This document shows, in pieces, positions 14,574 through 31,061 of a stretch of DNA of 64,000 nt; positions within the stretch are counted from its first letter, which is position 1, and the number at the start of each line of letters is the position of its first letter. Origin of the DNA: Lusitaniella coriacea LEGE 07157 (GTDB lineage: Bacteria; Cyanobacteriota; Cyanobacteriia; Cyanobacteriales; Spirulinaceae). Location: contig NZ_JADEWZ010000001.1 of assembly GCF_015207425.1 (NCBI RefSeq), positions 1 to 64,000 on the forward strand, in the 5' to 3' direction. Position numbers and translations under genes: made by a program. Below the pieces are notes generated by a model. That model searched no databases. It had not been told where the DNA came from and saw only the letters and a program-made list of their open reading frames with translations.

Positions 14574-15785
14574 TTGCCTCCGCGCGATCGCATAACAAAT
14601 TCTTCAATTAACCAAGTGAATATCAGCAAAATTTTCCACCCCTCTCAATATCAATTATTCGTTCTCCTAACCGCAGCATCCCTAATAACGATGTCAGGGG
14701 GAGTCGTTGCACCCGTTTTTCCCGACCTCGTGGAACAACTAAACTTCGATCCAACTCTCGCTGGTAACCTAGTAAGCATTCACTGTTTAACCCTAGCCCT
14801 CTTCAGTCCTCTATTCGGCATCATTGCAGATAAAATTTCTCCCGTGCGAGTACTAGTTCCCTCCTTGATTCTTTATGGTTTAGCCGGTTGCACGGGAGCG
14901 CTGATGACCAATTTTTGGTCTTTACTAGGAACGCGTGCCTTACTGGGGGTAGCAAGTGGCGGTCTTGCTGCCGCTAGTTTGGGCTTCATGAGCATCATGT
15001 ATGAAGGAGAGGAACGAGCGCAGATTATCGGCTATGGTACCGGGACTCTCACTCTTACTGGAATTATCTTCCCCTTATTAGGAGGCTGGGTTGGTGCTAA
15101 CAATTGGCAAAATGCTTTCTATCTCTACGGTTTAGCTATTCCTCTTGCGGGTTTAGCAACAGTCGTCTTCCCCAGTCAGCTCTATCAACCCATAAAGAAC
15201 CCAGAAACAGGCATGAGCAACAATCTTGGAGCTGTATTAAGCCGTCCTGCCATTTGGCAATTGCTCCTCACCCTTGCTCTAGCCTCTGTCGTCATGTATT
15301 CTGTCGTCATTTACGCACCTCATTATCTCAAAGACACCCTTGGGGTTGATGCCAAATTGAATGGACTGGTACTAGCCGCCAGAGCATTAGGAGCCGCCTT
15401 TATTTCTGCTTTCGGCGCTAAACGAATTGCAAAAATATTGAGCCGACAAGGAGCAACAGCATTCGGTTTCGGTTTAATGGCATTGACCCTAATCACCATT
15501 CCCCTCCTCAACCAATTTCAGTGGATTTTATTGACAGCAGTCTTCTTTGGTTTCGGCTTTGGTTTAGTACTCCCCAATCTCTACAGCGCTTTAGCCAATA
15601 TAGCTCCTACTCAAATGCGTTCGAGCGTTTTGGCAATCGGTACGGGAGCTGGTTTTTTGGGGCAGTTTATCTCCCCCATTTTATTGGCACCAATACGAGG
15701 AGGAGTGGGACTCGAAGCCGTTTTTTATGCCTCTGCTGGGATAGCAATGCTCGCAGGTTTTCTACTATTTCTGCCCAAACAGTAA
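14574..15785 (+). CDS. Major facilitator superfamily transporter
   Basis: About 400 residues with twelve hydrophobic segments. The typical MFS signature in the first half, FGIIADKISPVRVLVPSLI, lies in the loop between helices 2 and 3. It resembles drug/proton antiporters. The annotated TTG start may be replaced by GTG at 14616 (VNISKIFHPS); neither has a strong ribosome site. Its position between an oxygenase and a radical SAM gene suggests it exports or imports the cluster's product or precursor, but that is inference. Confidence 0.85.
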   Translation: MPPRDRITNSSINQVNISKIFHPSQYQLFVLLTAASLITMSGGVVAPVFPDLVEQLNFDPTLAGNLVSIHCLTLALFSPLFGIIADKISPVRVLVPSLILYGLAGCTGALMTNFWSLLGTRALLGVASGGLAAASLGFMSIMYEGEERAQIIGYGTGTLTLTGIIFPLLGGWVGANNWQNAFYLYGLAIPLAGLATVVFPSQLYQPIKNPETGMSNNLGAVLSRPAIWQLLLTLALASVVMYSVVIYAPHYLKDTLGVDAKLNGLVLAARALGAAFISAFGAKRIAKILSRQGATAFGFGLMALTLITIPLLNQFQWILLTAVFFGFGFGLVLPNLYSALANIAPTQMRSSVLAIGTGAGFLGQFISPILLAPIRGGVGLEAVFYASAGIAMLAGFLLFLPKQ

Positions 15786-15876
15786 CATCATCTTAAGCAT
15801 ACGCGGTATTGGAAAATAGAATGATATTTTGAAATTGACAAGAAGATTCTCCTGCTCTCTCATTCCTAGCCATACA

Positions 15877-17451
15877 ATGCGTGTTTTACTTCTATATCCC
15901 CGCTTCCCCAAATCCTTTTGGTCTTTTGAAAAAGTAATGGAACTGGTTGGGCTGAAAGCCTTCCTTCCACCCCTAGGACTAATTACAGTAGCAGCAATCT
16001 TGCCCCAAACCTGGGAATTTCGCTTAGTCGATCGTAATGTTCGCTTGGAAACTGAAGCAGACTGGGAATGGGCAGATTTGATTGTAACTTCTGGCATGAT
16101 CGTGCAAAAACCAGATTTACTCCATCTTATTCATGAAGCAAAGCAGAGGAACAAACTCATAGCAGTAGGCGGTCCCTATGTCACCTCCGTATCGGAGGAA
16201 GCCCAAGATGCTGGAGTAGACTTTCTAATTTTAGATGAGGGTGAAATCACCCTACCTCTGTTTGTTGAAGCTTTAGAACGAGGAGAAAAAAAAGGAGTAT
16301 TTCATGCCAATGGCGAAAAACCAGACATAACGCAAACCCCTATTCCTCGGTACGACTTGCTGGAGTTGGATGCTTATAGCGATATGTCCGTGCAGTTTTC
16401 TCGCGGTTGCCCTTTCCAGTGCGAGTTCTGTGACATTATTGTTCTCTACGGACGCAAACCCCGAACAAAAACTCCAGCACAACTATTAGCAGAATTGCAA
16501 ACCCTCTACAAATTAGGTTGGCGAGGTGGCATTTTCGTCGTAGATGATAACTTCATCGGCAATAAGCGGAATGTCAAACTACTCCTACGAGAACTCATTC
16601 CCTGGATGGAAAAACATAACTATCCCTTTCACTTCACCACAGAAGCCTCAGTAGATCTCTCGCAGGATGATGAGCTTTTAGATTTGATGTTTGTGACTAA
16701 CTTCAGGTCAGTATTTTTAGGCATAGAAACTCCAGATACAGATAGTTTAAAGCTGACTAAAAAATATCAAAATACCCGAAACTCATTGATTGAATGCGTT
16801 TGGAAAATAAATCGATCGGGAATGCGCGTCATGGCTGGTTTTATTGTGGGCTTTGATGGAGAAAAATCAGGAGCAGGCGATCGCATCATTGATTTTGTCG
16901 AAGCTACCGCTATTCCTCATGCTGTTTGCAGTATGCTTCAAGCTTTACCCAAGACTGCTCTTTGGTATCGTTTAGAAAAAGAAGGGCGTTTACTCGAAGG
17001 GAAAAATGGCACTATTAATCAAACCACCCTAACCAACTTTATTCCTACCCGTCCGATGGAAGAAATCGCGGAAGAATATATTGCTTGCTTTTGGCAATTA
17101 TACGATCCAAGCAAGTATTTAGGACGGGTTTATCGTCACCACCTATATAGAAAGCCAACATGTCATAAAAAGAAATTCAAAATGCCGCAATTAAGCATGA
17201 TTAAAGCATTATTAACTATTTGCTGGAGACAGGGGATCAAACGAAAAACTCGCTTTCAGTTTTGGATTCAACTTTTCTCGATCCTCAAACATAATAATAA
17301 AATACTTAAAAGTTATCTCACTGCTTGCGCTCATCTCGAACACTTCCTTGAATATCGCCAAATTGTACGAGACGAAATTGAAGGACAACTTGCTGAATTT
17401 CTCGAAGCAAAAGCTAGTACTGAAGAGAACAAAATATTGACTATTTCTTAG
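15877..17451 (+). CDS. B12-binding-domain radical SAM enzyme (DUF4070 type)
   Basis: About 524 residues from ATG 15877 (MRVLLLYPRFPKSFWSFEKV). An upstream in-frame extension to 15829 lacks family character. The N-terminal 150 residues are a cobalamin-binding-like domain. The radical SAM core has the cluster motif C178-P-F-Q-C182-E-F-C185, followed by GGIFVVDDNFIGN and FRSVFLGIETP. A C-terminal DUF4070-like region completes it. Relatives include the hopanoid C-2 methylase HpnP and many uncharacterised paralogues, so no specific name is given. Its 3' end overlaps the convergent next gene by 4 bp. Confidence 0.85.
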   Translation: MRVLLLYPRFPKSFWSFEKVMELVGLKAFLPPLGLITVAAILPQTWEFRLVDRNVRLETEADWEWADLIVTSGMIVQKPDLLHLIHEAKQRNKLIAVGGPYVTSVSEEAQDAGVDFLILDEGEITLPLFVEALERGEKKGVFHANGEKPDITQTPIPRYDLLELDAYSDMSVQFSRGCPFQCEFCDIIVLYGRKPRTKTPAQLLAELQTLYKLGWRGGIFVVDDNFIGNKRNVKLLLRELIPWMEKHNYPFHFTTEASVDLSQDDELLDLMFVTNFRSVFLGIETPDTDSLKLTKKYQNTRNSLIECVWKINRSGMRVMAGFIVGFDGEKSGAGDRIIDFVEATAIPHAVCSMLQALPKTALWYRLEKEGRLLEGKNGTINQTTLTNFIPTRPMEEIAEEYIACFWQLYDPSKYLGRVYRHHLYRKPTCHKKKFKMPQLSMIKALLTICWRQGIKRKTRFQFWIQLFSILKHNNKILKSYLTACAHLEHFLEYRQIVRDEIEGQLAEFLEAKASTEENKILTIS

Positions 17452-19337
17452 GTGAAATTATTAAATCGATCCAAAATTTTATTCGTTACTTTCTGAGAAG
17501 GTTGAGTGCAATAGTCGCCTGTTCGGTGAGCAACAACCAAAGGAAACCAACTGCATTCTTTTGAGTTTCGTGCTGCTCTGATTTTGCTTACTTCAATGCT
17601 AAGTGTTTTAAAATCTCTTTTTAAAGCAGCAATAAACTGCTGCCCAAAACTTTCCATTGCTTCCCCTTCCGTTGAGACTCTCTTGATAAAACCTTCTGGC
17701 GTTTGATAATCTTCTGGATTTAGATCGATAAACTCATTGAGTCCAATTCCAACTTTTTTTAATGTCCAAGCAACTTCTTCTGGTGAAAGTAGATATCGAT
17801 CGACATATTCTTGCAAAATTCCAGCAATAGCAAAAGAGCCAGCTAATTCAGGTAGTTTTGCGCGATTTCCATGCTGTTCAATTTCACTAGCAAAAGTCAG
17901 GGCAGCAGCTATATAACCCATCGTATGTGTTGTTGGGTGAATATGAGTTTTTCCTTTAAAAGCTCCATTGTGCTTAACACTATCTATGATTATTGTTTGT
18001 AGCAAGCTGTTATTAGAAAAACCACTAGAACCTAGCCCCATAAACTTTTTCCCATCTCCAGGAGTGTGAGAACTACTAACATTAAACGATCCTGCAATAC
18101 CAGGGCGCGTATGATGATCGGGAATAGCATGGATGAGCAGCTTAAAATCCAAGTAACCGTTATGAGCCTCTAAATACTTTTTTAAAGTAGGAAATTCACT
18201 TTCAAGTATAGACATTTCTTTCTGATTGAGTCTCGAAAGAATATCCGGTGTATGTAACAACATATCTCCAGCAACAAAACTTGCTAAAGTTGCACCTATA
18301 GAGGTTGGATTATATACAGATAAAAGCGAAATGTTTTGTAGAGAACTATTGCTTTCTAAGAGAGAATTGCTGTGAATGAATTCATCGAGTAGCGAGAGAT
18401 AAGGAATTATTGCACCATATATAGCACCTCGAATTGGCGTTCGTAAATTGTTGAGTAAAGTTTGAGAAATTTCTTCCTTTAAACTTGGATTAATCTGAAA
18501 AATAGAAGCTAATATTTTGTCCACATTAGCTTCTGATTGAGGAGTAGTGGGAAAAAAATATCCTGAAGTTTCAATGACTTGATTGAGAGCTTTGATATCT
18601 CGTTCTTCACGACTATCATAGCGAGAAAGATGACATTTTAATGAACTAGAGTTAATTGTTTCTTGTAAAATATCATCTTTTTCGTAGCGCATTATATCCG
18701 AGCCTCTTCTAGGACACCAAATTACTAAATTTCCTTCATCTTGGTTGAGAATATGATAATTTCTATCTTTTAAAGAAATAGGAAATTTTTGCATACAGGT
18801 TAATACATTATGCCAGGAAAGACCAAAGTTGCTAGAGGTTGTGCAAACAATCGATCTATGGGCAAATACTTCCCATAATGCTAAATAAATTGGATCGACT
18901 TTCTCAAGTATTTCTCTGGTGATTTCACGATTTTGAAAAATCAGATTTCCTTCTCTATTTTTACGGCTAATCAGAAACAATTGTTTGCGTTTTTCGAGTT
19001 GCTTATTAGCTTCTATCACTCCTCTATTTTTCTTGTCCTGAAGAACCTCAAGCTCAGAAAAAATTGGAAAAATTGTCTCGGCAATCAATCCAAAGACTTG
19101 AAATGCTTTGACACTATTCTCGAATTCTGACCATCCTGAAAGTAAAGCAATGCGCTTGCCAAATAATTCGCTAAGCACGGGAGAATAGGATAGCAATTTT
19201 TGAGACTGGCAGAATTCTTTATCTATTAGTCCAAAGTTGAGCTTTCGTGCTAACCTAATTGCGAGTAGTGCATATCTAATACTATTAGAATAGGTCTTTG
19301 CTATAAAACTGAAAAGCATAGATGTATTTTGGTACAA
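17448..19337 (-). CDS. Unrecognised 629-residue protein encoded next to a GH3-type enzyme
   Basis: I do not recognise this family. The product is mostly soluble, with a helical N-terminal third. The C-terminal half is rich in small and polar residues, with two histidine-bearing stretches (DHHTRPGIAGSF; KTHIHPTTHTMGYIAAAL) that could bind metal or ligand. No signal peptide is clear. The gene follows the GH3 gene with a 27-bp gap, so the two probably form one minus-strand operon. The DNA is visibly AT-rich and I saw no GCGATCGC in 17448-21035, unlike most of the window, which suggests acquisition by transfer. Confidence 0.7.
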   Translation of the reverse strand: MYQNTSMLFSFIAKTYSNSIRYALLAIRLARKLNFGLIDKEFCQSQKLLSYSPVLSELFGKRIALLSGWSEFENSVKAFQVFGLIAETIFPIFSELEVLQDKKNRGVIEANKQLEKRKQLFLISRKNREGNLIFQNREITREILEKVDPIYLALWEVFAHRSIVCTTSSNFGLSWHNVLTCMQKFPISLKDRNYHILNQDEGNLVIWCPRRGSDIMRYEKDDILQETINSSSLKCHLSRYDSREERDIKALNQVIETSGYFFPTTPQSEANVDKILASIFQINPSLKEEISQTLLNNLRTPIRGAIYGAIIPYLSLLDEFIHSNSLLESNSSLQNISLLSVYNPTSIGATLASFVAGDMLLHTPDILSRLNQKEMSILESEFPTLKKYLEAHNGYLDFKLLIHAIPDHHTRPGIAGSFNVSSSHTPGDGKKFMGLGSSGFSNNSLLQTIIIDSVKHNGAFKGKTHIHPTTHTMGYIAAALTFASEIEQHGNRAKLPELAGSFAIAGILQEYVDRYLLSPEEVAWTLKKVGIGLNEFIDLNPEDYQTPEGFIKRVSTEGEAMESFGQQFIAALKRDFKTLSIEVSKIRAARNSKECSWFPLVVAHRTGDYCTQPSQKVTNKILDRFNNFT

Positions 19338-19364: not shown

Positions 19365-21035
19365 TTAGGCAATTAACTGAATTTCCTTTTCAAATTCCAA
19401 TCCAGCCATAAAATCTCTATCTTCACTAATATGAGGAAATTTAAGCTGGTAAACAGGAATGCCTTTTTTGATTTGGCGCTGGCGAATTTTATCAAAACTA
19501 CCAGATTTCATAATGCGTAAGCAAGGAGGAGGAATTGAAATTTTTCGCTTAACATCATAGTAAGTATGAATTTCCTTTAACACATTGTCAAAACTTTCAA
19601 TGAAGGCGTAGGGATATTGAAGGTGATAATCGGAAGCAAGTTCTATATTGACTAAATATCGAGCAGGAAATTCATTTTCTGATAGAGTAATGCAAAAGTC
19701 TTCTAGTAAGATATTGAATTTTTGTTGTAGAATTTGCATAACTTGAGTGGCATGATACTCAGTTGTTTTTTCCATTGCTGAAGAGAGTAGTCCGCCTCGA
19801 CGATAACGAAAAACTAACAAAGGTACTTGTTCGTAAAATCCCAAAACTTCAAAAATATCACCAATATCGTAGCGATAAAAGCCACTATAGTTTGTCACTA
19901 AGATGCGGTAGTATTCTCCTGGTTTAACATCTTGCGCTAGTAATGTTTTAGGATGCTCTTCTCCCCATTGATCTGAAGGAATGAACTCAAAAAAACCAGT
20001 TTCAATGGCTAAAATACTGCCATCAGTATTAAAATCAGGATAAATACCAAAAGTTCCTTCTGCTGTAGCAAAGACCATCCCAAATCCCGGAATATTTCCA
20101 AAATACTCTGGGAAGCGCTCTAAATAAAAATCAGAAGTTCCTCCCCGTGCAGTAGCATAAAATGCTAAATTAGGCCAAGCTAAAATAGGTGTTAGTCTAC
20201 CTTCCGATCTAAGAATTTCTTGCAACTTCGCAGCACGAATAGGAGCAGGAGAAAGCTGTGCTTCTAACCTTACTCTAAGTTCTGGTTCTAGCTTTAACCA
20301 AGGGGCGATTCTGCCAGTTTCAAGGTCGCTAATCAAATTTTCACCATACTGCTCTAAAATATTGCAAATCTGTAGAATAACCATTGGAAAGTTTCCCCCA
20401 ATACTTTGAGGAGAATTGAATAAGGAAAAAAGCAGGCCAATATAAGAACGAGCTAAAGTGTCTTGGGGTTTAAATGTATCGTATGAATGGACTAATAGAT
20501 GCTTATAAAAAAAAGTCCCCATACGCAGCACGCCTGGTCCCGCAGAACCATATTGAATTCCGCCACTGGTTAATTCCGGTTTTGTAATAGCATTAATTGC
20601 AAGACCGGGAGCAAATTGCTTGCCCTGCTTGCGCAGTGCTTGACTTAAAAAACCAATGCTAGTCAGGTTTGCCCAGCCCAAAATATTCTGAAAACGTCGA
20701 GTGATAGGGATGAGTTTTTGTTTCCCAGTCGAGCCACTCGTTCTATTTAAGTAAATAACAGGATCGGGAGTTAAAATATTCTGCTCTCCAGCAGCAATGC
20801 GCTCAACATAGGGTTTATAAGCGCTATAAGGAAGTACTGGAATTTGTTTTTGAAATTGCTCGATGTTTTTGATATGCTTGAGGCCGTATTGGCAACCTAA
20901 TTCTGTCCGTTGATAGGCTCGCAACAATTTGAATAAAAATTTTTCTTGTACTTCAAATGAGTGTTGTGTTTTGTTGACAAAATTTGATTGGGCTTGTTCG
21001 GCAATAAAAGCCAATGCAGAGAGTAGATTGGGCAT
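19365..21035 (-). CDS. GH3-family acyl-acid amido synthetase-like adenylating enzyme
   Basis: GH3 enzymes activate a carboxylic acid as acyl-AMP and usually conjugate it to an amine or amino acid. The 556-residue product shows all three ATP/AMP motifs: TSGSTGKQK (99-107), ATAEGTFGIYP (323-333) and YRYDIGD (387-393). Further family patches are GGTSDFYLERFPEYFG and NYSGFY. Plant GH3s make hormone conjugates; bacterial members are largely uncharacterised. It is the first gene of a minus-strand pair with the unknown 629-residue protein, in AT-rich DNA. The acid and amine substrates cannot be read from the sequence. Confidence 0.85.
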   Translation of the reverse strand: MPNLLSALAFIAEQAQSNFVNKTQHSFEVQEKFLFKLLRAYQRTELGCQYGLKHIKNIEQFQKQIPVLPYSAYKPYVERIAAGEQNILTPDPVIYLNRTSGSTGKQKLIPITRRFQNILGWANLTSIGFLSQALRKQGKQFAPGLAINAITKPELTSGGIQYGSAGPGVLRMGTFFYKHLLVHSYDTFKPQDTLARSYIGLLFSLFNSPQSIGGNFPMVILQICNILEQYGENLISDLETGRIAPWLKLEPELRVRLEAQLSPAPIRAAKLQEILRSEGRLTPILAWPNLAFYATARGGTSDFYLERFPEYFGNIPGFGMVFATAEGTFGIYPDFNTDGSILAIETGFFEFIPSDQWGEEHPKTLLAQDVKPGEYYRILVTNYSGFYRYDIGDIFEVLGFYEQVPLLVFRYRRGGLLSSAMEKTTEYHATQVMQILQQKFNILLEDFCITLSENEFPARYLVNIELASDYHLQYPYAFIESFDNVLKEIHTYYDVKRKISIPPPCLRIMKSGSFDKIRQRQIKKGIPVYQLKFPHISEDRDFMAGLEFEKEIQLIA

Positions 21036-21562
21036 AATTGTTCTAATTGTTGTTGTCTTATCAATACAAAACAGTTGCTATTAATCGCAATTTTTAAGAC
21101 TATAAGTAAAGATTGTTTTTACTCTTATTTCAGTCTAATAAAGATGCACTTTACTTAATCAAGAATTGCTATATTGCTAAACTAAATAAGCGATCGCGCT
21201 TGCCCATTTTTTTGCCGGGATATACTGTCTGAAAGCCTTGCGGTTGAAGTGTTTTTCCCGTGGTGTTTCTTCCTCCTTTGATGCATTTGAGCGTGTCCGT
21301 GCGATGCTAAGCTAAAACACATTCAAGTTGGGTATCGGGCGCTTTGTATCAAAGCCGTCAATCTCTCTCTCACTGTGTGATCATTTCTCCGTGTCACCCT
21401 AAGTCACAATTTCAAGGCATAACAGTTTATTCACCTACTCATTACCCACGCATCCACGATACTCAATGGTTTCGCGATATTAAGAAATTAATATCTTCTG
21501 CTCCGGTGCTAGCTGCCCCTATCATACTAAGTTGAGTATCTATACAGTAGAGGAGATTGGTT
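21036..21562. other. Intergenic region between the GH3 operon and the Mpo1-like gene
   Basis: This divergent region of about 530 bases presumably contains promoters for both directions. It holds the MITE-like repeat at 21311-21428 and one GCGATCGC near 21190. A 63-codon reading frame at 21344-21535 lies largely inside the repeat and shows no protein character. Confidence 0.5.
21311..21428 (-). repeat. MITE-like repeat, copy 2 (inverted relative to copy 1)
   Basis: This 118-base copy reads, from its left end, GCTAAAACACATTCAAGTTG, then GCTTTGTATCAAAG and a CT-rich stretch, and ends in GGCATAACAGTTT. It matches the reverse complement of 13233-13355 over most of its length. With copy 1 it brackets the block from the Rieske oxygenase to GH3. 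Confidence 0.6.
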
Positions 21563-21883
21563 TTGAGTTATTATCAAGACGCGAAAGACCACTTCCTTGC
21601 AAGTCACCAGCACCCAATCAATCAGTTTTTACACCATGTAACGAATTTGATTGCGATCGCGGCTATCATCTTACTATTTTATGACTGGCGGTTAACCGCA
21701 GTTTGTCTAGTCCTAACCCAAGTGTTAGCGATTGGCGGTCACATTTTCTTTGAGAAAAACGAACCTGCCTTTAGGAAATATCCCGGAATTGTCATCCTCG
21801 TGTCCCTATCTTGGTCATTTGAGAACGCATTCGGTCTGCGTCAAGTTTGGCAAAAGAGAAAACTGACCGCTAATAACTCATAA
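21563..21883 (+). CDS. Mpo1-like (DUF962) small membrane protein
   Basis: The 106-residue product starts at TTG 21563 with AGGAG 7 bases upstream. It has hydrophobic helices around 25-45 and 47-62, and family histidines in HPINQFLHH and GGHIFFEKNEPA. In yeast, the related Mpo1 is a dioxygenase of 2-hydroxy fatty acids in phytosphingosine breakdown (fatty-acid alpha-oxidation). Here it lies 14 bp before an amidohydrolase and just ahead of the sphingolipid-like operon, a suggestive setting. The bacterial function is not established. Confidence 0.75.
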   Translation: MSYYQDAKDHFLASHQHPINQFLHHVTNLIAIAAIILLFYDWRLTAVCLVLTQVLAIGGHIFFEKNEPAFRKYPGIVILVSLSWSFENAFGLRQVWQKRKLTANNS

Positions 21884-21897
21884 AACAAGGAGAATTC

Positions 21898-23292
21898 ATG
21901 TACGAAGGTTTACTGGTCATTGATGCCGATGCCCACAAACTCGAAAATCCTTTAGTTTTACGGGATTATATTGACTCAGAATATCGCGATCGCGTGGGAT
22001 TAGTCGTAGACAGTCTCGGCGACCAAAGAGCAAGAGTTGTGGATTTTAACCCCGCAACCGGTCAAAACGACTTTGTTCGGATGTTTCCCCAACCTCATGG
22101 ACTCGGTAAAGGCGGCTTTCGCAACCTCCATCCCGATACTACATTAGGCGCAATGTTCAATAAAGTGCGGATCGAACAGATGGATTGTGAAGGGATCGAC
22201 GTTCATATCATTTACGGAACCCTCAGTTTGATTTTCTCCAGTATCTTAGATCGAGAGTTCGCGATCGCCCTCTGTCGAGCCTATAACAACTACATTGCCG
22301 ATGATTGCAAAGGATACGAAAACCGCCTCAAACCCATTGGTGTAATTCCTTTACAAGATGTCGATGCAGCAGTAGCAGAAATGTATCGCTGTATTAACGA
22401 ACTTGGCATGATTAGTGTCAGTGTTGCACCCCATCTCCCGGTTCCCCACCCCAAAGCACCCAATGCTTTCCCAGACATTCGCACCTGTAAAGCCATTAGC
22501 CATCCTGACTTCCGTCCGATTCTCCAAGCCGCAGTAGACTTAGATATTGGTCTTGGCATTCATGGGGGTCCCGGTTCTTATCTCGTTGGAGGTCTTTCTG
22601 ACCATACAGAGACATTTGTTCTGACCCACATTTTCGTCCAGCGCAATCAACAGCAATTAGCAATGGCGCGGGCGATCTTTGATGGAGCCTTCGAGCAATT
22701 TCCCAATCTGCGCGTCGGCTTTTTAGAAGGCGGTTGTGGTTGGGTTCCCGATCTTGCCCATGCTTTCTGCGAGCATTGGGAAAAGCGGATTCGCGACTTC
22801 GACCCCAAACATCCCTATCGTCCTTCCCTCATGGAAGCCACCAAACTCATGATTCAAGAAAAAGGAGGGAGCAACAACATCAACTTGATTGGCAAGACCA
22901 AAAATATGTTCGAGCTATTATGGAACACCCAGCACGACCCTACGAAAATTGATGATGCCAGCTTATACGAACATTACGATCTGCGCGATCGCAACCCTTT
23001 AGAATATTTTGAAAGAGGTCAAATTTTCGTCTCTTTTGAATCCGATGACCCAGCGCCTGCCTATCTTCCCACAGCAATGGGAGAAGTCGGCAAACGACTA
23101 GCCTGCTTCTCTGGCGATTACGGTCATTGGGATGGGGTATTCCATAACTGTGTCAAAAAAGCAGCAACTGTTGCCGATTATGACCGAGAGCATCTAGAAC
23201 TGTTATTAGGAGGCAATGCTTTAGCACTCTACGGTGACCGCCTTCGTCAATCCTTAATACAGAATACAAAGCCAGACAAAATTTCGATCTAG
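21898..23292 (+). CDS. Metal-dependent amidohydrolase (Amidohydro_2/ACMSD-like)
   Basis: A 464-residue TIM-barrel hydrolase or decarboxylase of the amidohydrolase-2 family. Metal-site features seen are VIDADAHK at the N-terminus (in place of D-x-D-x-H), GIHGGPG, FLEGGCGWVP and a C-terminal aspartate in FSGDYGHWDG. AAGGAG lies about 8 bases before the ATG. The family includes decarboxylases and hydrolases acting on aromatic or lipid-like acids. It follows the Mpo1-like gene closely. The substrate is unknown; a role in tailoring or degrading a lipid is only suggested by position. Confidence 0.82.
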   Translation: MYEGLLVIDADAHKLENPLVLRDYIDSEYRDRVGLVVDSLGDQRARVVDFNPATGQNDFVRMFPQPHGLGKGGFRNLHPDTTLGAMFNKVRIEQMDCEGIDVHIIYGTLSLIFSSILDREFAIALCRAYNNYIADDCKGYENRLKPIGVIPLQDVDAAVAEMYRCINELGMISVSVAPHLPVPHPKAPNAFPDIRTCKAISHPDFRPILQAAVDLDIGLGIHGGPGSYLVGGLSDHTETFVLTHIFVQRNQQQLAMARAIFDGAFEQFPNLRVGFLEGGCGWVPDLAHAFCEHWEKRIRDFDPKHPYRPSLMEATKLMIQEKGGSNNINLIGKTKNMFELLWNTQHDPTKIDDASLYEHYDLRDRNPLEYFERGQIFVSFESDDPAPAYLPTAMGEVGKRLACFSGDYGHWDGVFHNCVKKAATVADYDREHLELLLGGNALALYGDRLRQSLIQNTKPDKISI

Positions 23293-23422
23293 TAATTCTC
23301 ACTTCCAGGAAGCAGGCGCGCTACTTCTCTTACAAGAAATACTTCCTGAAAACCTTATTGTTGTGGAATCTTAGCAAGTCATTCTTCTTCCTTTCCCGAC
23401 AAGCACAATATTGGCACGAAAA

Positions 23423-24595
23423 ATGTTTCAGAAAATTCCCATAGCTTGGTTACAACTGCAATATCAAAAAGGGCAAACCATTGCAGCCATCCTGGGAATT
23501 GCATTTACGGCACTTCTACTTTTTATGCAGATCGGTTTCCGTTCTAGCTTCTTAGCAAGCCTAGTTCAACTTCCTTCTAGTTTTCAGAGTGACATTTTTT
23601 TAATGAGTGCTTCCTCTGTCACTTCCCTTAGACCGGTAACTTTTTCCGAACGTCGTTTGTACCAAGTCTTAGCCTTCAAAGAAGTAGAATCGATCGCTCC
23701 AATCTATCTGACCCAGGTTTTGTTGAAGAATCCGACAAACAAATCTCTTTTTCTGCGACAGGTTCAGGTTATCGCCTTTCCCTTAAAATCCCAAGTTATT
23801 GATTTACCCGGAATTGAAGAAAATTTACATAAATTAAAAATAGATAACGTTTTTTTATTGGATAAAAAGTCTCGACCAGAATTTTTACCATTAATTTCTG
23901 AAGTCAACGAAAAAGGAAAAACAATTGTCGAAATCACAACCGTGGGCTTGGCAAGGGAAAAAATTGAAATTGCTGGACTCTTTGAATTAGGAGCGAGTAC
24001 CTCATCTAATTCAGCTTTAGTTACTAGCGACGCTAATTTCCTGCGTACATTTAATAGACAAAGAGGAGAAATTGGCATTGGATTGATTGAACTAAAACCA
24101 GAAGCTGACCTTCAGCAAGTTTTATCTAAAATGGAAAAGTATTTCAATGAAGATGTTAAAGTAGTATTAAAAACTGACTTAATTAAACAAGAAAAAGAAT
24201 TTTATGAATACAATACTCCAATGGGCTTAATATTTCGCTTTGGCTTAATAGGTTCTATTGTGGTAGGTGCGATAATTTTGTATCAAATACTTTACCAAAA
24301 AATATCAAAATTCATCAAAGAATATGCAACTTTAAAAGCACTTGGCTACACGCACAACTCTCTTGTCAAAATTGTCCTAGAAGAATCTTTGATGCTGGCA
24401 ATCTTAGGCTATATTCCTGGATTTATACTCTCTTGTCTGATGTACGACATACTTGCCAAAGCGACAAGTTTGCAGTTCGTGATGACAATTGATGTGGCAA
24501 TCGCCGTTTTATTATTAATTTGTTCAATCTGTTTTATTTCTGGGGTTGTTGCCGTGAGGAAGTTGAAAGAAGCCGACCCTGCTGATGTTTTTTGA
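23423..24595 (+). CDS. DevC-like ABC transporter permease
   Basis: DevC is the permease of DevBCA exporters, MacB-like transporters that in heterocyst-forming cyanobacteria export glycolipids through TolC. The product starts MFQKIPIAWLQLQYQKGQ at ATG 23423, the usual DevC start; a TTG at 23411 is less likely. One helix lies near 18-38 and three lie in the C-terminal 130 residues, around a large periplasmic domain (about 45-260). It is 15 bp before the ATPase gene. The DNA is AT-rich. Here the exporter is linked to lipid enzymes rather than heterocyst genes. Confidence 0.88.
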   Translation: MFQKIPIAWLQLQYQKGQTIAAILGIAFTALLLFMQIGFRSSFLASLVQLPSSFQSDIFLMSASSVTSLRPVTFSERRLYQVLAFKEVESIAPIYLTQVLLKNPTNKSLFLRQVQVIAFPLKSQVIDLPGIEENLHKLKIDNVFLLDKKSRPEFLPLISEVNEKGKTIVEITTVGLAREKIEIAGLFELGASTSSNSALVTSDANFLRTFNRQRGEIGIGLIELKPEADLQQVLSKMEKYFNEDVKVVLKTDLIKQEKEFYEYNTPMGLIFRFGLIGSIVVGAIILYQILYQKISKFIKEYATLKALGYTHNSLVKIVLEESLMLAILGYIPGFILSCLMYDILAKATSLQFVMTIDVAIAVLLLICSICFISGVVAVRKLKEADPADVF

Positions 24596-24610
24596 TGAGA
24601 ATAATCTAGC

Positions 24611-25714
24611 ATGAAAAGCATTGTTACTATTCAAAACCTCAATCACTACTATCAAGAAGGGAAAGAAAGAAAACAGGTTTTGTTTGACGTTAACTTGAAA
24701 ATTGAAGCAGGAGAAACTTTTTTTCTAACTGGAGAATCTGGGTCAGGAAAAACAACATTAATATCCTTGATTGGCTGCTTGCGTTCTGTGCAAGAGGGAA
24801 GTCTGACGATATTGGATCGAGAATTGCGCGGAGCCAATGAAAACCAATTGATGAATTTGCGCCGTAATCTAGGCTATGTTTTTCAACATTTCAATTTATT
24901 GGACTTCATGACGATTCGACAGAATGTGCAAATCTCTCTCGAACTCCAGGAAAATTTCAATCCCGATCGAGCCCGCTCTCAAAGCGAAGCAATCCTTAAA
25001 GAAGTAGGGCTAGGACACCGAACCAACGCTTATCCTAGAGAACTCTCAGGAGGACAAAAGCAGCGAGTTTCCCTCGCTCGTGCCTTAGTTCACCGTCCCA
25101 AATTAATACTAGCTGACGAACCCACTGCCTCCCTAGACAGTAAAACCGGTCGGGAGGTGGTAGAACTCATTCAGCGTCTGGCCAAACAACAAGGGAGTGC
25201 TGTTTTAATCGTTACCCATAATACTCGAATGTTCGATCTTGCAGATCGGATCGTGCGGATCGAAGATGGTAAGCTAGGAGTAGGATACGGTGAGCAAATC
25301 TCTTTAATACTGCCAACTCTGACGGACACACAATTAAACGAGATTTCATCGAACCTAGAACTACGTACCTATGAACCTCACGCAACCATTATTAGACAAG
25401 GCGATCGCGCAGATGAATTTTACATTCTGATAGAAGGCAGGGTTGATGCGATTAAAGAAGATGAGAACTCACAAGAGGTGTTACTCAGGCAACTGAAGCA
25501 AGGAGACTACTTTGGAGAGATCGGTTTACTGAAGCGTCGCAAGCGAACCGCTACAGTCCGCGTTGTCGCTGACGCTGAAGCCAAAGTTCTTGTTATGAAT
25601 CGCGAAGCTTTTCTGCAAATGATTTCTGAGTCAAACTTAACGAATGCTGTTATTAGCCACCAATCCTTTCAACGTCTGTTGAGCGAACGTCTAGTGAAGA
25701 AAAGTGCAGGGTGA
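24611..25714 (+). CDS. DevA-like ABC ATPase fused to a cyclic-nucleotide-binding domain
   Basis: The first 235 residues are a complete ABC ATPase with Walker A GESGSGKTT (about 41-49), Q-loop, signature LSGGQKQR and Walker B LILADEPTA, closest in style to DevA. A second domain (about 250-360) has the cNMP-binding pattern IIRQGDRADEFYILIEG, GDYFGEIGLL and RTATVRV, where the phosphate-binding cassette GEIGLLKRRKRTATV is recognisable. Ordinary DevA has about 240 residues, so the C-terminal domain is an addition. It may gate export by a second messenger or act only as a scaffold. It overlaps the next start by 4 bp (GTGA). Confidence 0.88.
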   Translation: MKSIVTIQNLNHYYQEGKERKQVLFDVNLKIEAGETFFLTGESGSGKTTLISLIGCLRSVQEGSLTILDRELRGANENQLMNLRRNLGYVFQHFNLLDFMTIRQNVQISLELQENFNPDRARSQSEAILKEVGLGHRTNAYPRELSGGQKQRVSLARALVHRPKLILADEPTASLDSKTGREVVELIQRLAKQQGSAVLIVTHNTRMFDLADRIVRIEDGKLGVGYGEQISLILPTLTDTQLNEISSNLELRTYEPHATIIRQGDRADEFYILIEGRVDAIKEDENSQEVLLRQLKQGDYFGEIGLLKRRKRTATVRVVADAEAKVLVMNREAFLQMISESNLTNAVISHQSFQRLLSERLVKKSAG

Positions 25715-27030
25715 AAACCGTGGAAGTCGTCCAAGAATATATGCAGGCTATTTATCGAAACGGTTTATATCCCGACGAGTACATCTGTCATCACAAACAG
25801 GGCAATTTAGTCGAAATTGAAGCAGAAGCAACAGGAGTTCGCCACAAGGTTCTGACCTTCTGCACAAACGATATTTTAGGGTTAGTCGGATCGGAGTCCG
25901 TTAAGCAAGCAGCAATTGATGCCGTTCTTCAGTACGGCACTTCTAATAGTTCCTGTCCCACCTTAAGCGGTCGTATTGACCTCCATCGCCAGCTAGAACG
26001 AGAAATTTCGGCTTTTAAGCAACTCCCCCACACCCATCTATTTATCAATGCTTGGATGGCAATGCAGGCTTTGATGGATGGCTTCTGTCACCTTGCCGCA
26101 CCCATTCCCGGCTTTTATAATACTAGAGAAACTTTGGTGATGACAGACGTGTTCAATCATGGTTGCATCGTCTCCGCTTTAGTGAATGCGAAAAACCTGT
26201 CTGGTAGAGTTGTCAATCATAGTGCTAATGTTCGGGTGAAACCCTATCGTCACTGTGATGGGGCTGACTTAGCGCGTAAGTTGCGACGCTATGCTCAACC
26301 CGATGACCGAATTATGGTCGTTTCCGATGCAGTCTTCTCGATGGAAGGGGATATTGCTCCCTTGCCAGAGATCCTCGCCGTGCTGGAAAATTATCCTGGC
26401 AGCGTTATCGTTATGGATGAAGCCCATGCGAGTGGGGCAATTGGAGCAAGTGGGGGAGGCATCTACGAACACTTTGGGATTACACCCCAGGATGTTCTTA
26501 AAAAGGGAGTTGTACCCTTGATCGTGACCACGTTCTCTAAATTCGCAGCTTCAGCAGGGGCGGCAATTAGCAGCCATTCCCCCGAATTCATCGATCTGTT
26601 GGATGCCTGTCCTACTTCCATCGGGACGATTTCTCTCCCAGCACCCACTACGGCGGCTGCCCTAGAAGCGATCCGTCAAGTGAGGAAAGCGCCTAAGTTA
26701 GTACAAAAGCTTCAGGCAAATACTCGTTACCTGCGATCGCGCCTAATGGAGAATGAATTTACTACGATGGGAGAAACCCAGGTTATTCCAGTCTTCCTTT
26801 CTCCAGAACTCGATCCTAAGCCCTTTGCCTCTCACCTCATCGAACGCCACGGCATTTGGATATCCCCCATTTGGTATAGAGCAAAACCTCGCCTCCGCAT
26901 TACAGCGAATGCCCTTCATACCGAAGAGGAAATGGATCGTCTTGTCGCAGCGATGGTGGCAACCCGGAAGGCTTTGTCTCAGCCCCAAAAAGCAGGATTG
27001 GGTATGGGAAACGATCGGGAATCCGGTTGA
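25711..27030 (+). CDS. Alpha-oxoamine synthase, serine palmitoyltransferase-type (PLP-dependent)
   Basis: These fold-type I PLP enzymes condense an amino acid with an acyl thioester (Spt, Kbl, BioF, HemA). Seen in the 439-residue product are the family patch TLSGRIDLHRQLE, a cofactor-binding DEAH (236-239) in VMDEAHASGAIGASGGG, the PLP lysine K277 in TTFSKFAASAG, and YRHCDGADL. It starts at a GTG overlapping the stop of the DevA-like gene. I favour a serine-palmitoyltransferase role because the next two genes match the other core steps of bacterial ceramide synthesis. By sequence alone, BioF- or Kbl-like activities remain possible. Confidence 0.8.
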   Translation: MKTVEVVQEYMQAIYRNGLYPDEYICHHKQGNLVEIEAEATGVRHKVLTFCTNDILGLVGSESVKQAAIDAVLQYGTSNSSCPTLSGRIDLHRQLEREISAFKQLPHTHLFINAWMAMQALMDGFCHLAAPIPGFYNTRETLVMTDVFNHGCIVSALVNAKNLSGRVVNHSANVRVKPYRHCDGADLARKLRRYAQPDDRIMVVSDAVFSMEGDIAPLPEILAVLENYPGSVIVMDEAHASGAIGASGGGIYEHFGITPQDVLKKGVVPLIVTTFSKFAASAGAAISSHSPEFIDLLDACPTSIGTISLPAPTTAAALEAIRQVRKAPKLVQKLQANTRYLRSRLMENEFTTMGETQVIPVFLSPELDPKPFASHLIERHGIWISPIWYRAKPRLRITANALHTEEEMDRLVAAMVATRKALSQPQKAGLGMGNDRESG

Positions 27031-27139
27031 ATGCCCTCAGTAAGGACTGAGGTCGGAGAATGTGTTTTAGCTTAGGGGATATTTTCTGTTCCCTCAAGCG
27101 GTAAATTTTGTACCCTACCGGATAAGGAAACACAATAGG

Positions 27140-28261
27140 ATGACTTCCAACATAGTGACGGTTACAACTCCGGTCGAGAAAGAAGCGTTTCTCAATGTAC
27201 CTGCTAGTATTTATCAAAACGATCCCAACTGGGTACAACCCCTACGCAGTAGTATCGCCAAACAATTAGCTCCCAGTAGCCCATTTTCTCAATACGGTCA
27301 GCTACAGCAGTTTGTCGCCTTGTCGGAAGGGCAAATGGTGGGGCGTATTGTTGCGGCGGTGAATCGAAGACTGATTGAAAAAGAAGGCAAACCGATCGGA
27401 TTATTTGGGTATTTTGAATGCATTGAAGATTTTGAAGTTGCTCGATCCTTGTTAGAAACAGCCTGCCAATGGTTGCGAGATCGCGGTATGACTAAAATTC
27501 GCGGTCCGATCGACCTCTCAATTCACAATAATTGCCTCTTTCTCGTGGATGGCTTTGATTCGCCGCCAACGATCATGATGCCCTATAACCCTCCCTACTA
27601 TCCAGAATTTTTGGAAAAGGCTGGCTGGCAAAAAGCGAAAGATGCCTACGCCTATCATTTTCCCCTAGATAAACCTCTTCCCTCTAAATTTGAGAAAGCC
27701 TATAAAATTGCTTGTCAATCTGGCATTACATTCCGCCCCATCTGCCTGAAAGAGCCGGGATTTGAACGAGATTGTCGCAGTCTCTATCATTTATTCACTA
27801 AAGCCTTTGCCCATAACTGGAGTTCGACTCCTCGCAGTGAAGCGGAATTTCTCGAAGAAGCCAAAGAGTTACAACCGTTAGTCGATCCGGATCTGTTTCC
27901 CATTGCGGAAGATAACGGCGACGCGATCGGCTTTTGGATGGGTTTACCCGACTACAATATTCCCCTGAAACAGGTCAATGGGAAACTCAACTGGCTTGGT
28001 CTGCTCAAGTTTCTCTGGTATCGCCGCCAGATTCACCAAGCTAGAGTAATCGCCGTGTGTTCTTTACCAGAGTATCGTCGGAAAATGGTGCCTTTGGCTC
28101 TGATTTATTTAGGAATGCAGGGAGGGATTAAAAAGCATAAACCCTATCAGAGTGCGGAACTGTCCTGGGTCTGGGAAGATAACCATTCCTCTCGCAAGCT
28201 GATTGAGGCCGCAGGGGGCAAAATTCATAAGACTTACCGCATCTATGAAAAAGAAATATGA
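27140..28261 (+). CDS. GNAT-like acyltransferase, candidate bacterial ceramide synthase
   Basis: The 373-residue protein begins with the pattern of a double-GNAT family usually annotated as N-acetyltransferase: IYQNDPNWVQPL, GRIVAAVNRR, GLFGYFECIEDFEVA, KIRGPIDLSIHNN, FDSPPTIMMPYNPPYYPEF. To my knowledge the Caulobacter ceramide synthase bCerS, which N-acylates the long-chain base, belongs to this kind of family. It lies 109 bp after the oxoamine synthase and overlaps the SDR gene by 4 bp (ATGA). The family is broader than ceramide synthase, so the specific role rests on context. Confidence 0.7.
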   Translation: MTSNIVTVTTPVEKEAFLNVPASIYQNDPNWVQPLRSSIAKQLAPSSPFSQYGQLQQFVALSEGQMVGRIVAAVNRRLIEKEGKPIGLFGYFECIEDFEVARSLLETACQWLRDRGMTKIRGPIDLSIHNNCLFLVDGFDSPPTIMMPYNPPYYPEFLEKAGWQKAKDAYAYHFPLDKPLPSKFEKAYKIACQSGITFRPICLKEPGFERDCRSLYHLFTKAFAHNWSSTPRSEAEFLEEAKELQPLVDPDLFPIAEDNGDAIGFWMGLPDYNIPLKQVNGKLNWLGLLKFLWYRRQIHQARVIAVCSLPEYRRKMVPLALIYLGMQGGIKKHKPYQSAELSWVWEDNHSSRKLIEAAGGKIHKTYRIYEKEI

Positions 28262-29211
28262 AGGCATTCGTCACAGGAGCTAATGGATTCACCGGATCTC
28301 ATTTAGTCAAACATCTCCAACAACAAGGTTATCAAGTCAAGGGTTTAGTGCGTCAATCGAGTAATTTATCCCGCCTCGCAAACTGCGATTTAGAACTGGT
28401 GTATGGCGATCTGACCCATCGACAGGTTTTACAGGACGCGATCGCGGATATCGATACAATATTCCACACAGCCGCCTATGTAGACCTGGGATTGGTCGAT
28501 GAGGCAGAGATGGAACGAGTTAATGTGGAAGGAACCCGCACCATCTTAGAAGTCGCCCAATCCGCCAGAATCTCAAAAATAGTCTATTGCAGCACGATTG
28601 GCGTATTTGGGGATACCCAAGGTCAGGTGGTTGATGAAACCTTCCAAAGAACACAGCAGGATTTTTCTTCTGCCTACGACCGCACGAAATACCAAGCGCA
28701 ACAACTAGTAGATGGATTTTTCCAGCAAGGTTTACCCGTCGTGAGTATCATGCCGTCTGGTATTTTTGGACGCGATGACCCTCATTTTGGGCCTGTCATT
28801 CAGCTCTTTCTCAAAAGACAATTAAAAGTATGGCCCGGTGGCGATCGCGTCACGGGTATCGTTCATGTAGACGATCTGGTACAGGGTATGATTCTCGCAG
28901 CCCAAAACGGCAAACCGGGAGAACATTATATTCTTTCCTCTGGGGAGCTAACCACCCGCGAGATGTTTGCAATCCTCTCTGAGGAAACGGGGATTCCCTT
29001 ACCCGCAGATCCCCCCGAACTTCTAGTGAGGCTAGTCGGTCGCTTAATCGACCCTATTGGCAAATTATTGTCTTGGAACCCGCCCATTAGTCGCGAGCGC
29101 GTTCGCTACATTTACGATCGTTGCGTACGAGTTCAGGCAACAAAAGCACATCAAGAGTTGGGTTGGCAATCTCGCTCTGTATCGGAAATACTAAAAGAAT
29201 TAGTCAGATAA
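28258..29211 (+). CDS. NAD(P)-dependent SDR/epimerase-type reductase, candidate ceramide reductase (CerR-like)
   Basis: The 317-residue extended SDR has the nucleotide-binding GANGFTGSH (7-15) and the catalytic Y140-x3-K144 (AYDRTKYQ), with STIGVFG upstream. It resembles sugar epimerases and 3-beta-HSD-like reductases. In Caulobacter the gene for the keto reduction in ceramide synthesis encodes such a protein. It is translationally coupled to the acyltransferase gene (ATGA overlap) and 18 bp ahead of the DevB-like gene. Substrate assignment depends on this context. Confidence 0.8.
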   Translation: MKAFVTGANGFTGSHLVKHLQQQGYQVKGLVRQSSNLSRLANCDLELVYGDLTHRQVLQDAIADIDTIFHTAAYVDLGLVDEAEMERVNVEGTRTILEVAQSARISKIVYCSTIGVFGDTQGQVVDETFQRTQQDFSSAYDRTKYQAQQLVDGFFQQGLPVVSIMPSGIFGRDDPHFGPVIQLFLKRQLKVWPGGDRVTGIVHVDDLVQGMILAAQNGKPGEHYILSSGELTTREMFAILSEETGIPLPADPPELLVRLVGRLIDPIGKLLSWNPPISRERVRYIYDRCVRVQATKAHQELGWQSRSVSEILKELVR

Positions 29212-29229
29212 AAAACTATTTTTTTTACA

Positions 29230-30525
29230 ATGAAAATCAAGTCTTTGGGCAAACAAAAAAGTTGGTGGCTTGCTGGCTGCGCTTTGGCGATTGCTTTGCC
29301 TTTAAGTGTATTTTCGATTTATACCCTCCAGAACTCTCGGAAAAGCACTTCAGGAGTCTCCTCCTCAGATTTAGAGCTTTTAGCTTCGCCGAACGCCATT
29401 GCGGCTTTGGGGTTTTTAGAACCTGAAGGAGAAGTTGTTCGTTTATCAGGAACGGTTGCCAATGGCGCGCGGGTCGATAAATTATTGGTCAAACAGGGAG
29501 AACAAGTCAAAACAGGGCAAATCGTGGCAATTCTTGATAGTCGCGATCGCCTCTTGACTGCTCTAAAAAAGTCGCAAACACAAGTCAAAATTGCCGAATC
29601 TCGTCTGGCGCAGGTGAAAGCGGGAGCAAAACAAGGGGAAATTAATGCTCAAAAGGCGAGAGTTAATAATTTGCAAGCAGAATTACAAGGTCAAAAGGCA
29701 ACGCAACAAGCCACTATCGAGCGTCTAGAATCAAACTTAAAAGGGAACACAGCAGCTCAACAAGCCACCATCGAACGTCTAGAAGCAGAGTTGCGGAATG
29801 CCCAAAACGAGTGCAATCGCTTCGAGAGATTATATCTTGATGGCGCGGTAACCACTTCAGACCGCGATCGAAAGTGCTTAGAACAGAAAACGGCTCGCCA
29901 GCGCGTCGTTGAGGCAAAAGTTACCCTGAAACGGATTGTAGATAGCACCCAAGACGAAATCGAAGAAGCGCAAGCAAATCTCAAAAGAACGATCGATACC
30001 ATTCAACAGCAGCAGACTGGGGCAAAAGCGACCCTCAACCAAATTGCAGAAGTTCGCGATGTAGACGTGGGACTTGCCCAAGCAGAACTCGAAGATGCCA
30101 TCGCAGGCGTTCAACAGGCTCAGGCAGAGTTAGATTTAGCGTATGTGCGAGCGCCCAGTTCCGGGCAGATTCTGAAAATTCATACTTTTCCAGGAGAAAT
30201 TATCAGCGATCGCGGTATTGTCGAACTGGGTCAAACGAGACAGATGTACGTGAAGGCAGAAGTCTATGAAACCGATATTAGCCAAGTCCGTCTCGGTCAG
30301 CCATCGAGCATTACCAGCGATGGTTTTCCAGGGGAATTAACGGGGGTTGTCGATGAGATTGGGCTGCAAATTGGTAAAAAAGAGGTGTTGAGTACCAACC
30401 CTGCTGTTGACGTGGATGCAAGAGTGGTCGAGGTGAAAATTCGTCTCGATTTAGAAGATAGTCAGAAGGTTGCAGGCTTAACAAATTTACAGGTGCAGGT
30501 TGTAATTGATAGCTCTAACGAATGA
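29230..30525 (+). CDS. DevB/HlyD-family periplasmic adaptor (membrane fusion protein)
   Basis: The 431-residue product has one N-terminal membrane anchor (about 10-30), a split lipoyl-like domain (GTVANGARVDKLLVKQGEQV and the late YVRAPSSGQILKI) and a long alpha-helical hairpin of about 150 residues with repeated QATIERLE, then beta-barrel domains. Such adaptors connect an ABC pump to TolC. In most cyanobacteria devB precedes devC and devA; here it is last, with three lipid enzymes in between. Confidence 0.88.
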   Translation: MKIKSLGKQKSWWLAGCALAIALPLSVFSIYTLQNSRKSTSGVSSSDLELLASPNAIAALGFLEPEGEVVRLSGTVANGARVDKLLVKQGEQVKTGQIVAILDSRDRLLTALKKSQTQVKIAESRLAQVKAGAKQGEINAQKARVNNLQAELQGQKATQQATIERLESNLKGNTAAQQATIERLEAELRNAQNECNRFERLYLDGAVTTSDRDRKCLEQKTARQRVVEAKVTLKRIVDSTQDEIEEAQANLKRTIDTIQQQQTGAKATLNQIAEVRDVDVGLAQAELEDAIAGVQQAQAELDLAYVRAPSSGQILKIHTFPGEIISDRGIVELGQTRQMYVKAEVYETDISQVRLGQPSSITSDGFPGELTGVVDEIGLQIGKKEVLSTNPAVDVDARVVEVKIRLDLEDSQKVAGLTNLQVQVVIDSSNE

Positions 30526-30572: not shown

Positions 30573-31061
30573 CTATTTCCACCTCAGTTCGAGAAAACTT
30601 CGCTCAGGTTGATTTAACTCTTCTTCGGTTAGCCATTCGACGGGTTGGTATGTTCCAAACACGCGATCCCACCAGTCTACGGCTAAACCAAAATTATGAT
30701 GCCACTGATTGTACTTATGGTGAACATAATGAACGGGCATTTTCATCCAGAAGCACTTGGTTGGATTATCGTGTTGTAATTGATGGGCATAGGCGGAAAA
30801 AGCGGCATAACTTAATCCCCCCAAAAACCAGCCAATTCCTGCCGACCAAGAAACAAAAAACAGAGAACATAAGACAACAAAAAAGCCTCTAACATAGTCT
30901 CGAAATTCCCAGAGTACGCCTTGTCCTGCATTACGGCGATGATGGTCGCGGTGACGTTCGCCAATTTTTTGGGAAAAATGCATCAAGCGGTGCATCCAGT
31001 ATTCAACAAAGCTAGCAAAAATAAAAGCAGCAACTGCCATTAATAGAGGAAAGAAACTCAT
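30573..31061 (-). CDS. Fatty-acid hydroxylase/sterol desaturase-family membrane di-iron enzyme
   Basis: The 162-residue integral membrane protein carries the histidine clusters of the superfamily: HRLMH (24-28), HRDHH (37-41), HQLQH and HYVHHKYNQWHH. Four hydrophobic segments are visible. Family members hydroxylate fatty acids, sterols, carotenoids or sphingoid bases. It converges on the lipid/exporter operon, ending 47 bp from it. It could hydroxylate that lipid, but it could also be a CrtZ/CrtR-like carotenoid hydroxylase; its size is close to CrtZ. Confidence 0.8.
   Translation of the reverse strand: MSFFPLLMAVAAFIFASFVEYWMHRLMHFSQKIGERHRDHHRRNAGQGVLWEFRDYVRGFFVVLCSLFFVSWSAGIGWFLGGLSYAAFSAYAHQLQHDNPTKCFWMKMPVHYVHHKYNQWHHNFGLAVDWWDRVFGTYQPVEWLTEEELNQPERSFLELRWK

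Follow-up and report, generated by a model that had tools for sequence, protein, structure and literature searches.

Does the cyanobacterium Lusitaniella coriacea LEGE 07157 encode a pathway for a ceramide-like lipid together with a pump that exports it? The question is raised by six plus-strand genes at 23411–30525 of the window, the 64,000-nucleotide stretch of contig NZ_JADEWZ010000001.1 (positions 1–64,000) that was analysed here. They encode, in this order, a DevC-type ABC exporter permease, a DevA-type ATPase, an alpha-oxoamine synthase (AOS), a GNAT-type acyltransferase, an extended short-chain dehydrogenase/reductase (SDR) and a DevB-type membrane fusion protein. A first-pass annotation of the same DNA had compared the three middle enzymes with Spt, bCerS and CerR, the core of ceramide synthesis in Caulobacter, and had placed all six genes in one operon. 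Genes, strand and coordinates were as it described: DevA and AOS overlap by 4 bp, 109 bp separate AOS from the acyltransferase, the acyltransferase and SDR overlap by 4 bp, and the gap between SDR and DevB is 18 bp. Promoter and terminator scans at the locus gave no signal above shuffled sequence, so that the operon is proposed from gene spacing and overlap. The psbA gene in the same genome scores over its cut-off, and the genome is therefore that of a photosynthetic cyanobacterium.

Our data suggest that a ceramide-like lipid is the product of the three enzymes encoded in the middle, by way of a divergent first enzyme, and we put the probability of this reading at about 0.68. The best explanation appears to be a known kind of pathway, bacterial ceramide synthesis, in which the new element is the divergent first enzyme in cyanobacteria.

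Acyltransferase kinship and co-inheritance of the enzymes

The ACYLTRANSFERASE (27140–28261) ties the locus more firmly to ceramide synthesis than any other of its proteins. It is 31% identical over its full length (E 7e-62) to YghO of E. coli BL21, whose gene sits within the sphingolipid cluster of that strain; YghO and Caulobacter CC_1154 are both listed as aca (PMC9386255). Aligned with 17 acyltransferases from other bacteria whose genes lie close to Spt, it shows 30–37% identity end to end and 40 invariant columns. In the acyltransferase tree the cyanobacterial proteins form a 100/100 clade beside Spt-linked members of Proteobacteria, Deltaproteobacteria, Actinomycetota and Bacteroidota, and a 100/100 branch parts the window acyltransferase and the bCerS rows from ThiF-linked Rhizobiaceae GNATs. 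The tree does not fix the deeper order, and some rows without a link to Spt also fall on the bCerS side. In a fold search the predicted model (predicted local distance difference test score, pLDDT, 84.6) matched tandem GNAT proteins, N-myristoyltransferases among them. Judged by homology and tree position, the protein is a true relative of bacterial ceramide synthase, an N-acyltransferase of the bCerS/YghO family with a tandem GNAT fold. The earlier assignment to the bCerS type thus stands, as the protein groups with Spt-linked bCerS and not outside them.

The three enzymes are strictly co-inherited. Among 386 sampled cyanobacterial genomes, an AOS orthologue (66–76% identity) was found in 28, approximately 7%, and an acyltransferase orthologue (58–74%) in 29. 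The SDR orthologue (59–70%) occurs in exactly the same 29 genomes as the acyltransferase, including all 28 AOS carriers. The probability of this co-occurrence by chance is 9e-42 by the hypergeometric test and 1.6e-23 when counted by genus, neither figure being corrected for shared ancestry. Co-occurrence persists where the genes are unlinked, lying on three contigs in one genome (G002) and in three places up to approximately 1 Mb apart in another (G037). Where the genes are clustered, the order is mostly AOS–acyltransferase–SDR. Co-inheritance across the phylum indicates that the grouping is more than chance, and supports the view that AOS, bCerS-like acyltransferase and SDR form one co-inherited pathway.

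The same order is also found on plasmids of Rubrobacter and Streptomyces; relatives outside the cyanobacteria were drawn only from plasmid records and Spt-bearing contigs. In the cassettes of Rubrobacter radiotolerans and Streptomyces NBC_01001 the three genes overlap or nearly abut, and the acyltransferases are 33–35% identical to that of the window. Their AOS proteins group with Spt, unlike the window AOS. In Streptomyces NBC_01001 the cassette is followed, with a 4-bp overlap, by a condensation-domain gene (L236, 10048–11295), which suggests a further acyl or aminoacyl transfer there.

We infer the following substrates, order of steps and product. A 3-keto long-chain base would be formed by the AOS from a long-chain acyl thioester and an amino acid, for which L-serine is the simplest choice; the bCerS-family acyltransferase would add a second acyl chain to the nitrogen, and the SDR would reduce the 3-keto group. 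Oxidation of the lipid or of its acyl chains may follow, by a Rieske oxygenase in most carriers and by a fatty acid hydroxylase-like protein in some. In the window genome, transport across the envelope is probably the task of the DevBCA-type pump whose genes surround those of the enzymes. Ceramide synthesis in Caulobacter and E. coli BL21 (Spt, bCerS/aca/YghO and CerR/epi) likewise co-encodes an AOS, an acyltransferase homologous over its full length and an extended SDR. Unlike those systems, the window has no Lpt-type transporter and adds a Rieske oxygenase, and its AOS is not established as an Spt orthologue. The Caulobacter-type core proposed at first is therefore retained for the bCerS-like acyltransferase and the co-inherited trio; it does not extend to the AOS as an Spt, and the likeness to CerR is weak in sequence.

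Several points weigh against this reading. No dedicated acyl carrier protein (ACP) or acyl-ACP synthetase gene stands beside the AOS gene, unlike in proteobacterial clusters, those of Caulobacter and E. coli BL21 included. The AOS lies outside a supported Spt clade (98/95), and neither the tree nor approximately unbiased (AU) tests appear to settle the nearest kin of its lineage. One genome, G313, carries the acyltransferase and SDR (and the Rieske gene) without a detectable AOS; no replacement AOS was found near its Rieske gene, and a methyltransferase gene lies directly upstream of its acyltransferase gene. The DevC–DevA–enzymes–DevB order, for which the first-pass annotation had suggested searching other cyanobacteria, is absent from all of the other 34 AOS neighbourhoods. 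Nostoc punctiforme is reported to have no sphingolipids and a single AOS, of BioF type (PMC8895605); because its only AOS is BioF-type, this negative result is no test of the present pathway.

Among cyanobacteria, ceramides or sphingolipids have been reported on chemical grounds, without genes, from only two species: Scytonema julianum and Moorea producens (PMC8895605). The literature searched yielded no paper on this gene set, in agreement with the earlier remark that the arrangement was not known to have been described in cyanobacteria; the sole cyanobacterial sphingolipid gene study found was PMC8895605, which is negative. A broader proposal, which we hold tentatively and at somewhat less than even odds, is that approximately 20 of the 143 sampled genera of photosynthetic cyanobacteria make an unrecognised class of ceramide-like lipid, which would be built by an AOS lineage apart from Spt, BioF, Kbl and HemA. 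A Rieske oxygenase would tailor this lipid, and in some species its exporter would be a DevBCA-type pump, a kind otherwise associated with heterocyst glycolipids. The co-inherited gene set predicts which cyanobacteria make such lipids and which do not, and the question can therefore be tested by lipid analysis of carriers and non-carriers.

Relatives of the acyltransferase also occur away from the three-gene set. The genome G295, which belongs to the same order as the window genome and lacks the AOS, encodes a distant bCerS-like GNAT (31%; L194, 8912–10042) convergent with DevB–DevC. A separate bCerS-like clade (27–34% identity) is present in Cyanobacteriota outside the class of the window genome (L195–L201), and no AOS partner of these genes was found within the fetched stretches.

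DevBCA and the question of export

All three Dev proteins passed their family cut-offs. DevC (starting at 23411 with TTG or at 23423 with ATG, and ending at 24595) scored 371 bits with NCBIfam TIGR01185 (cut-off 290), DevA (24611–25714) 336 bits with TIGR02982 (cut-off 296) and DevB (29230–30525) 345 bits with TIGR02971 (cut-off 129). The three enzyme genes part DevB from DevC and DevA. DevBCA–HgdD of Anabaena exports heterocyst glycolipids, and Anabaena has several DevBCA homologues of unknown function (PMC6161253). The window pump resembles the Anabaena DevBCA–TolC system in its subunit families, and the Anabaena pump exports a lipid. It differs in that enzymes are encoded between DevA and DevB, and in that a cyclic-nucleotide-binding domain is fused to the C terminus of DevA (residues approximately 252–340; PF00027, 84 bits). 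This domain may gate the pump. Elsewhere, the DevA-type ATPases encoded next to the enzymes are shorter (249–267 aa), which leaves no room for such a domain.

It is nearly an even chance that the DevBCA exporter has nothing to do with the enzymes that its genes came to enclose, and that the lipid is not its cargo. Across the 35 neighbourhoods compared (the window and those of 34 other genomes), interleaving is seen in the window genome only, most carriers have no DevA-type gene at the enzymes, and an MFS transporter gene occurs there more often (14/35). Against an accidental placement stand the 4-bp overlap of DevA with AOS and the 18-bp gap between SDR and DevB. DevA-type ATPases are also few, 1–3 per genome in five genomes that were all chosen for the adjacency, and yet such a gene abuts the SDR gene in three genomes besides that of the window (G026, G325 and, with a score slightly below the DevA cut-off, G303), and in G003 approximately 1.5 kb separates a DevBCA set from the AOS. 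With 22 other SDR loci and an assumed 2 such genes per 5000, 0.02 adjacencies are expected; P is approximately 1e-6 if the events were independent, and 0.017 if they go back to one ancestral event. A dedicated DevBCA export step is at most suggested by the ATPase genes beside the SDR in the three other genomes, and export of the enzymes' product by DevBCA is plausible.

Identity of the first enzyme and of the reductase

The AOS (25711–27030; PF00155) would carry out the first step, in which the C–C bond is formed. In the alignment it retains the catalytic residues H150, D236, H239, K277 and R396; K277, the lysine for pyridoxal phosphate (PLP) that had been pointed out earlier, lies within TTFSK. 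TFSK around this lysine is the form found in Spt; the rows of Kbl, HemA and cyanobacterial BioF, like most of the remaining BioF rows, read TL(G/S)K instead. The RLR motif close to the C terminus departs from the Spt form, and position 284 is Ala, where all Spt rows have Gly. Classified with curated models that carry cut-offs, the AOS falls below every cut-off for BioF, Kbl, Spt and HemA. Its scores with three Spt models were 169, 152 and 102 bits (cut-offs 640, 500 and 670), and its score with the BioF model was 218 bits (cut-off 426), for which a different protein of the same genome reaches 463 bits.

In the AOS tree the window protein and its cyanobacterial orthologues form a clade of their own (100/100), set off by a long stem (2.4 changes per site). 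Joining the AOS to Spt was not rejected by the AU test (p 0.316), and the same was true when cyanobacterial BioF was the partner (p 0.359). When a Spt-like AOS of Rubrobacter was searched against the window genome, it scored 271 bits with that genome's own BioF and 131 bits with the window AOS. Among PDB entries the AOS matches best a serine palmitoyltransferase, 3a2b (E 1e-36); identification as Spt from this match was dropped after the tree, the AU tests and the Rubrobacter search. On these comparisons the AOS is not demonstrably an Spt, and it probably represents a separate lineage. Of the Spt-type first enzyme proposed earlier, the PLP lysine and the general AOS residues were confirmed, but not a place in the Spt clade or a score above an Spt cut-off; profile search and phylogeny likewise gave no firm grouping with BioF or Kbl. 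Npun_R3567 of Nostoc punctiforme belongs to the same superfamily, with approximately 30–35% identity. The window AOS differs from it in standing in a separate 100/100 clade, in a genome that has its own certified BioF. Expression of Npun_R3567 in E. coli formed no ketosphinganine (PMC8895605).

Since union with neither Spt nor BioF was rejected and the RLR motif is not Spt-like, the substrate may be serine or another amino acid. It is possible, although we lean against it, that the AOS takes alanine, glycine, cysteate or another amino acid within the same three-step logic. The product would then be a 1-deoxyceramide, a sulfonolipid-like compound or an N-acyl amino ketone or alcohol natural product, and not a true sphingolipid. 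The separate lineage with its long stem and A284 is consistent with this, as are a cysteate fatty acyltransferase (28eh) among the PDB relatives and the 1-deoxysphingolipids that PMC11334938 reports from Black Sea bacteria. The match to 3a2b and the TFSK motif point towards serine, but they do not decide the substrate. It is unlikely that this is an ordinary sphingolipid pathway whose genuine Spt was acquired by transfer from another phylum. Identical gene order in Actinomycetota and the unrejected union with Spt speak for it; the position outside the Spt clade, scores of 102–169 bits against Spt cut-offs of 500–670 and the far closer match of the Rubrobacter protein to the BioF of the window genome than to its AOS speak against it. 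A genome survey by Spt similarity has extended the likely sphingolipid producers to 40 phyla (PMC11334938). If the first enzyme of the ceramide-like pathway lies outside the Spt lineage, such surveys would have missed these organisms, and recruitment of AOS enzymes into the synthesis of ceramide-like lipids would have taken place at least twice.

The SDR (28258–29211; Epimerase, 138 bits) is a putative 3-keto reductase with a GxxGxxG motif and the YxxxK motif predicted for it, present as Y140DRTK. Its best NCBIfam match is HpnA, at 218 bits and below the cut-off of 368, and HpnA is likewise the best sub-cut-off match for the SDRs of the E. coli, Rubrobacter and Streptomyces clusters. A second, certified HpnA (462 bits) is encoded elsewhere in the genome. 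With separate certified BioF and HpnA proteins in the genome, the AOS and SDR are free for another task. Identity to SDRs of ceramide clusters is 21–31%, and in a search of the window genome with the Rubrobacter SDR the window SDR ranked first with an E value of only 2e-16. The SDR may thus be called CerR-like in role and position, and weakly so in sequence: the extended SDR type, YxxxK, and co-encoding and co-inheritance with the AOS and bCerS-like genes uphold the earlier comparison with CerR, but the low identity does not. That the SDR and the Rieske oxygenase instead serve hopanoid or sterol modification (HpnA, SdmA/SdmB) beside an unrelated AOS and acyltransferase is very improbable and was set aside, because their best NCBIfam matches, HpnA and SdmA-like (242 bits), are both far below cut-off, ceramide-cluster SDRs share the match to HpnA, HpnA is separately present, and the SDR tracks the acyltransferase in every genome.

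Genes around the locus

The putative tailoring hydroxylase is a Rieske oxygenase (13387–14451, plus strand; PF00355). Its orthologues (54–69%) occur in 19 of the 386 genomes, all within the 29 carriers of acyltransferase and SDR, and in many other genomes the gene lies directly upstream of AOS. Judged by this distribution, the Rieske oxygenase is part of the pathway in most carriers. The MFS transporter gene that follows (14574–15785, plus strand; PF07690) often accompanies the Rieske/AOS pair elsewhere, and is the family (c4) counted above.

Closer to DevC, a GH3-family acyl-activating enzyme is encoded on the minus strand (19365–21035; PF03321, 252 bits), and its family (c6) was found in 7/35 neighbourhoods. 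The GH3 family is best known from plants. The similarity of the protein to the lyso-ornithine lipid synthetase OlsH is weak (67 bits, cut-off 620). An amidohydrolase gene (21898–23292, plus strand; PF04909) recurs near the AOS in two further genomes, with 81% identity.

Two flanking genes may bear on the acyl chains. A Mpo1-like protein of the 2-hydroxy fatty acid dioxygenase family (21557–21883, plus strand; PF06127, 46.8 bits) is also encoded beside fatty acid hydroxylase, GH3 and AOS genes in two other genomes. Downstream of DevB lies a gene for a fatty acid hydroxylase-superfamily protein (30573–31061, minus strand; PF04116, 57.7 bits; family c5 in 9/35 neighbourhoods), for which the PDB gave no relatives except Scs7, the ceramide fatty acid hydroxylase of yeast, with a weak E of 0.006. 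Sterol-desaturase-family proteins weakly similar to it are also present in the ceramide clusters of Roseomonas and Acidisoma. The Mpo1-like and Scs7-like proteins that flank the operon are hints of 2-hydroxy acyl chains.

A 629-aa protein without a Pfam or NCBIfam match is encoded at 17448–19337. Between its gene and that of the MFS transporter lies a gene for a B12-binding radical SAM protein with DUF4070 (15829–17451), and a DUF4070 radical SAM gene is also found beside the MFS, Rieske and AOS genes in another genome (G322, L129).

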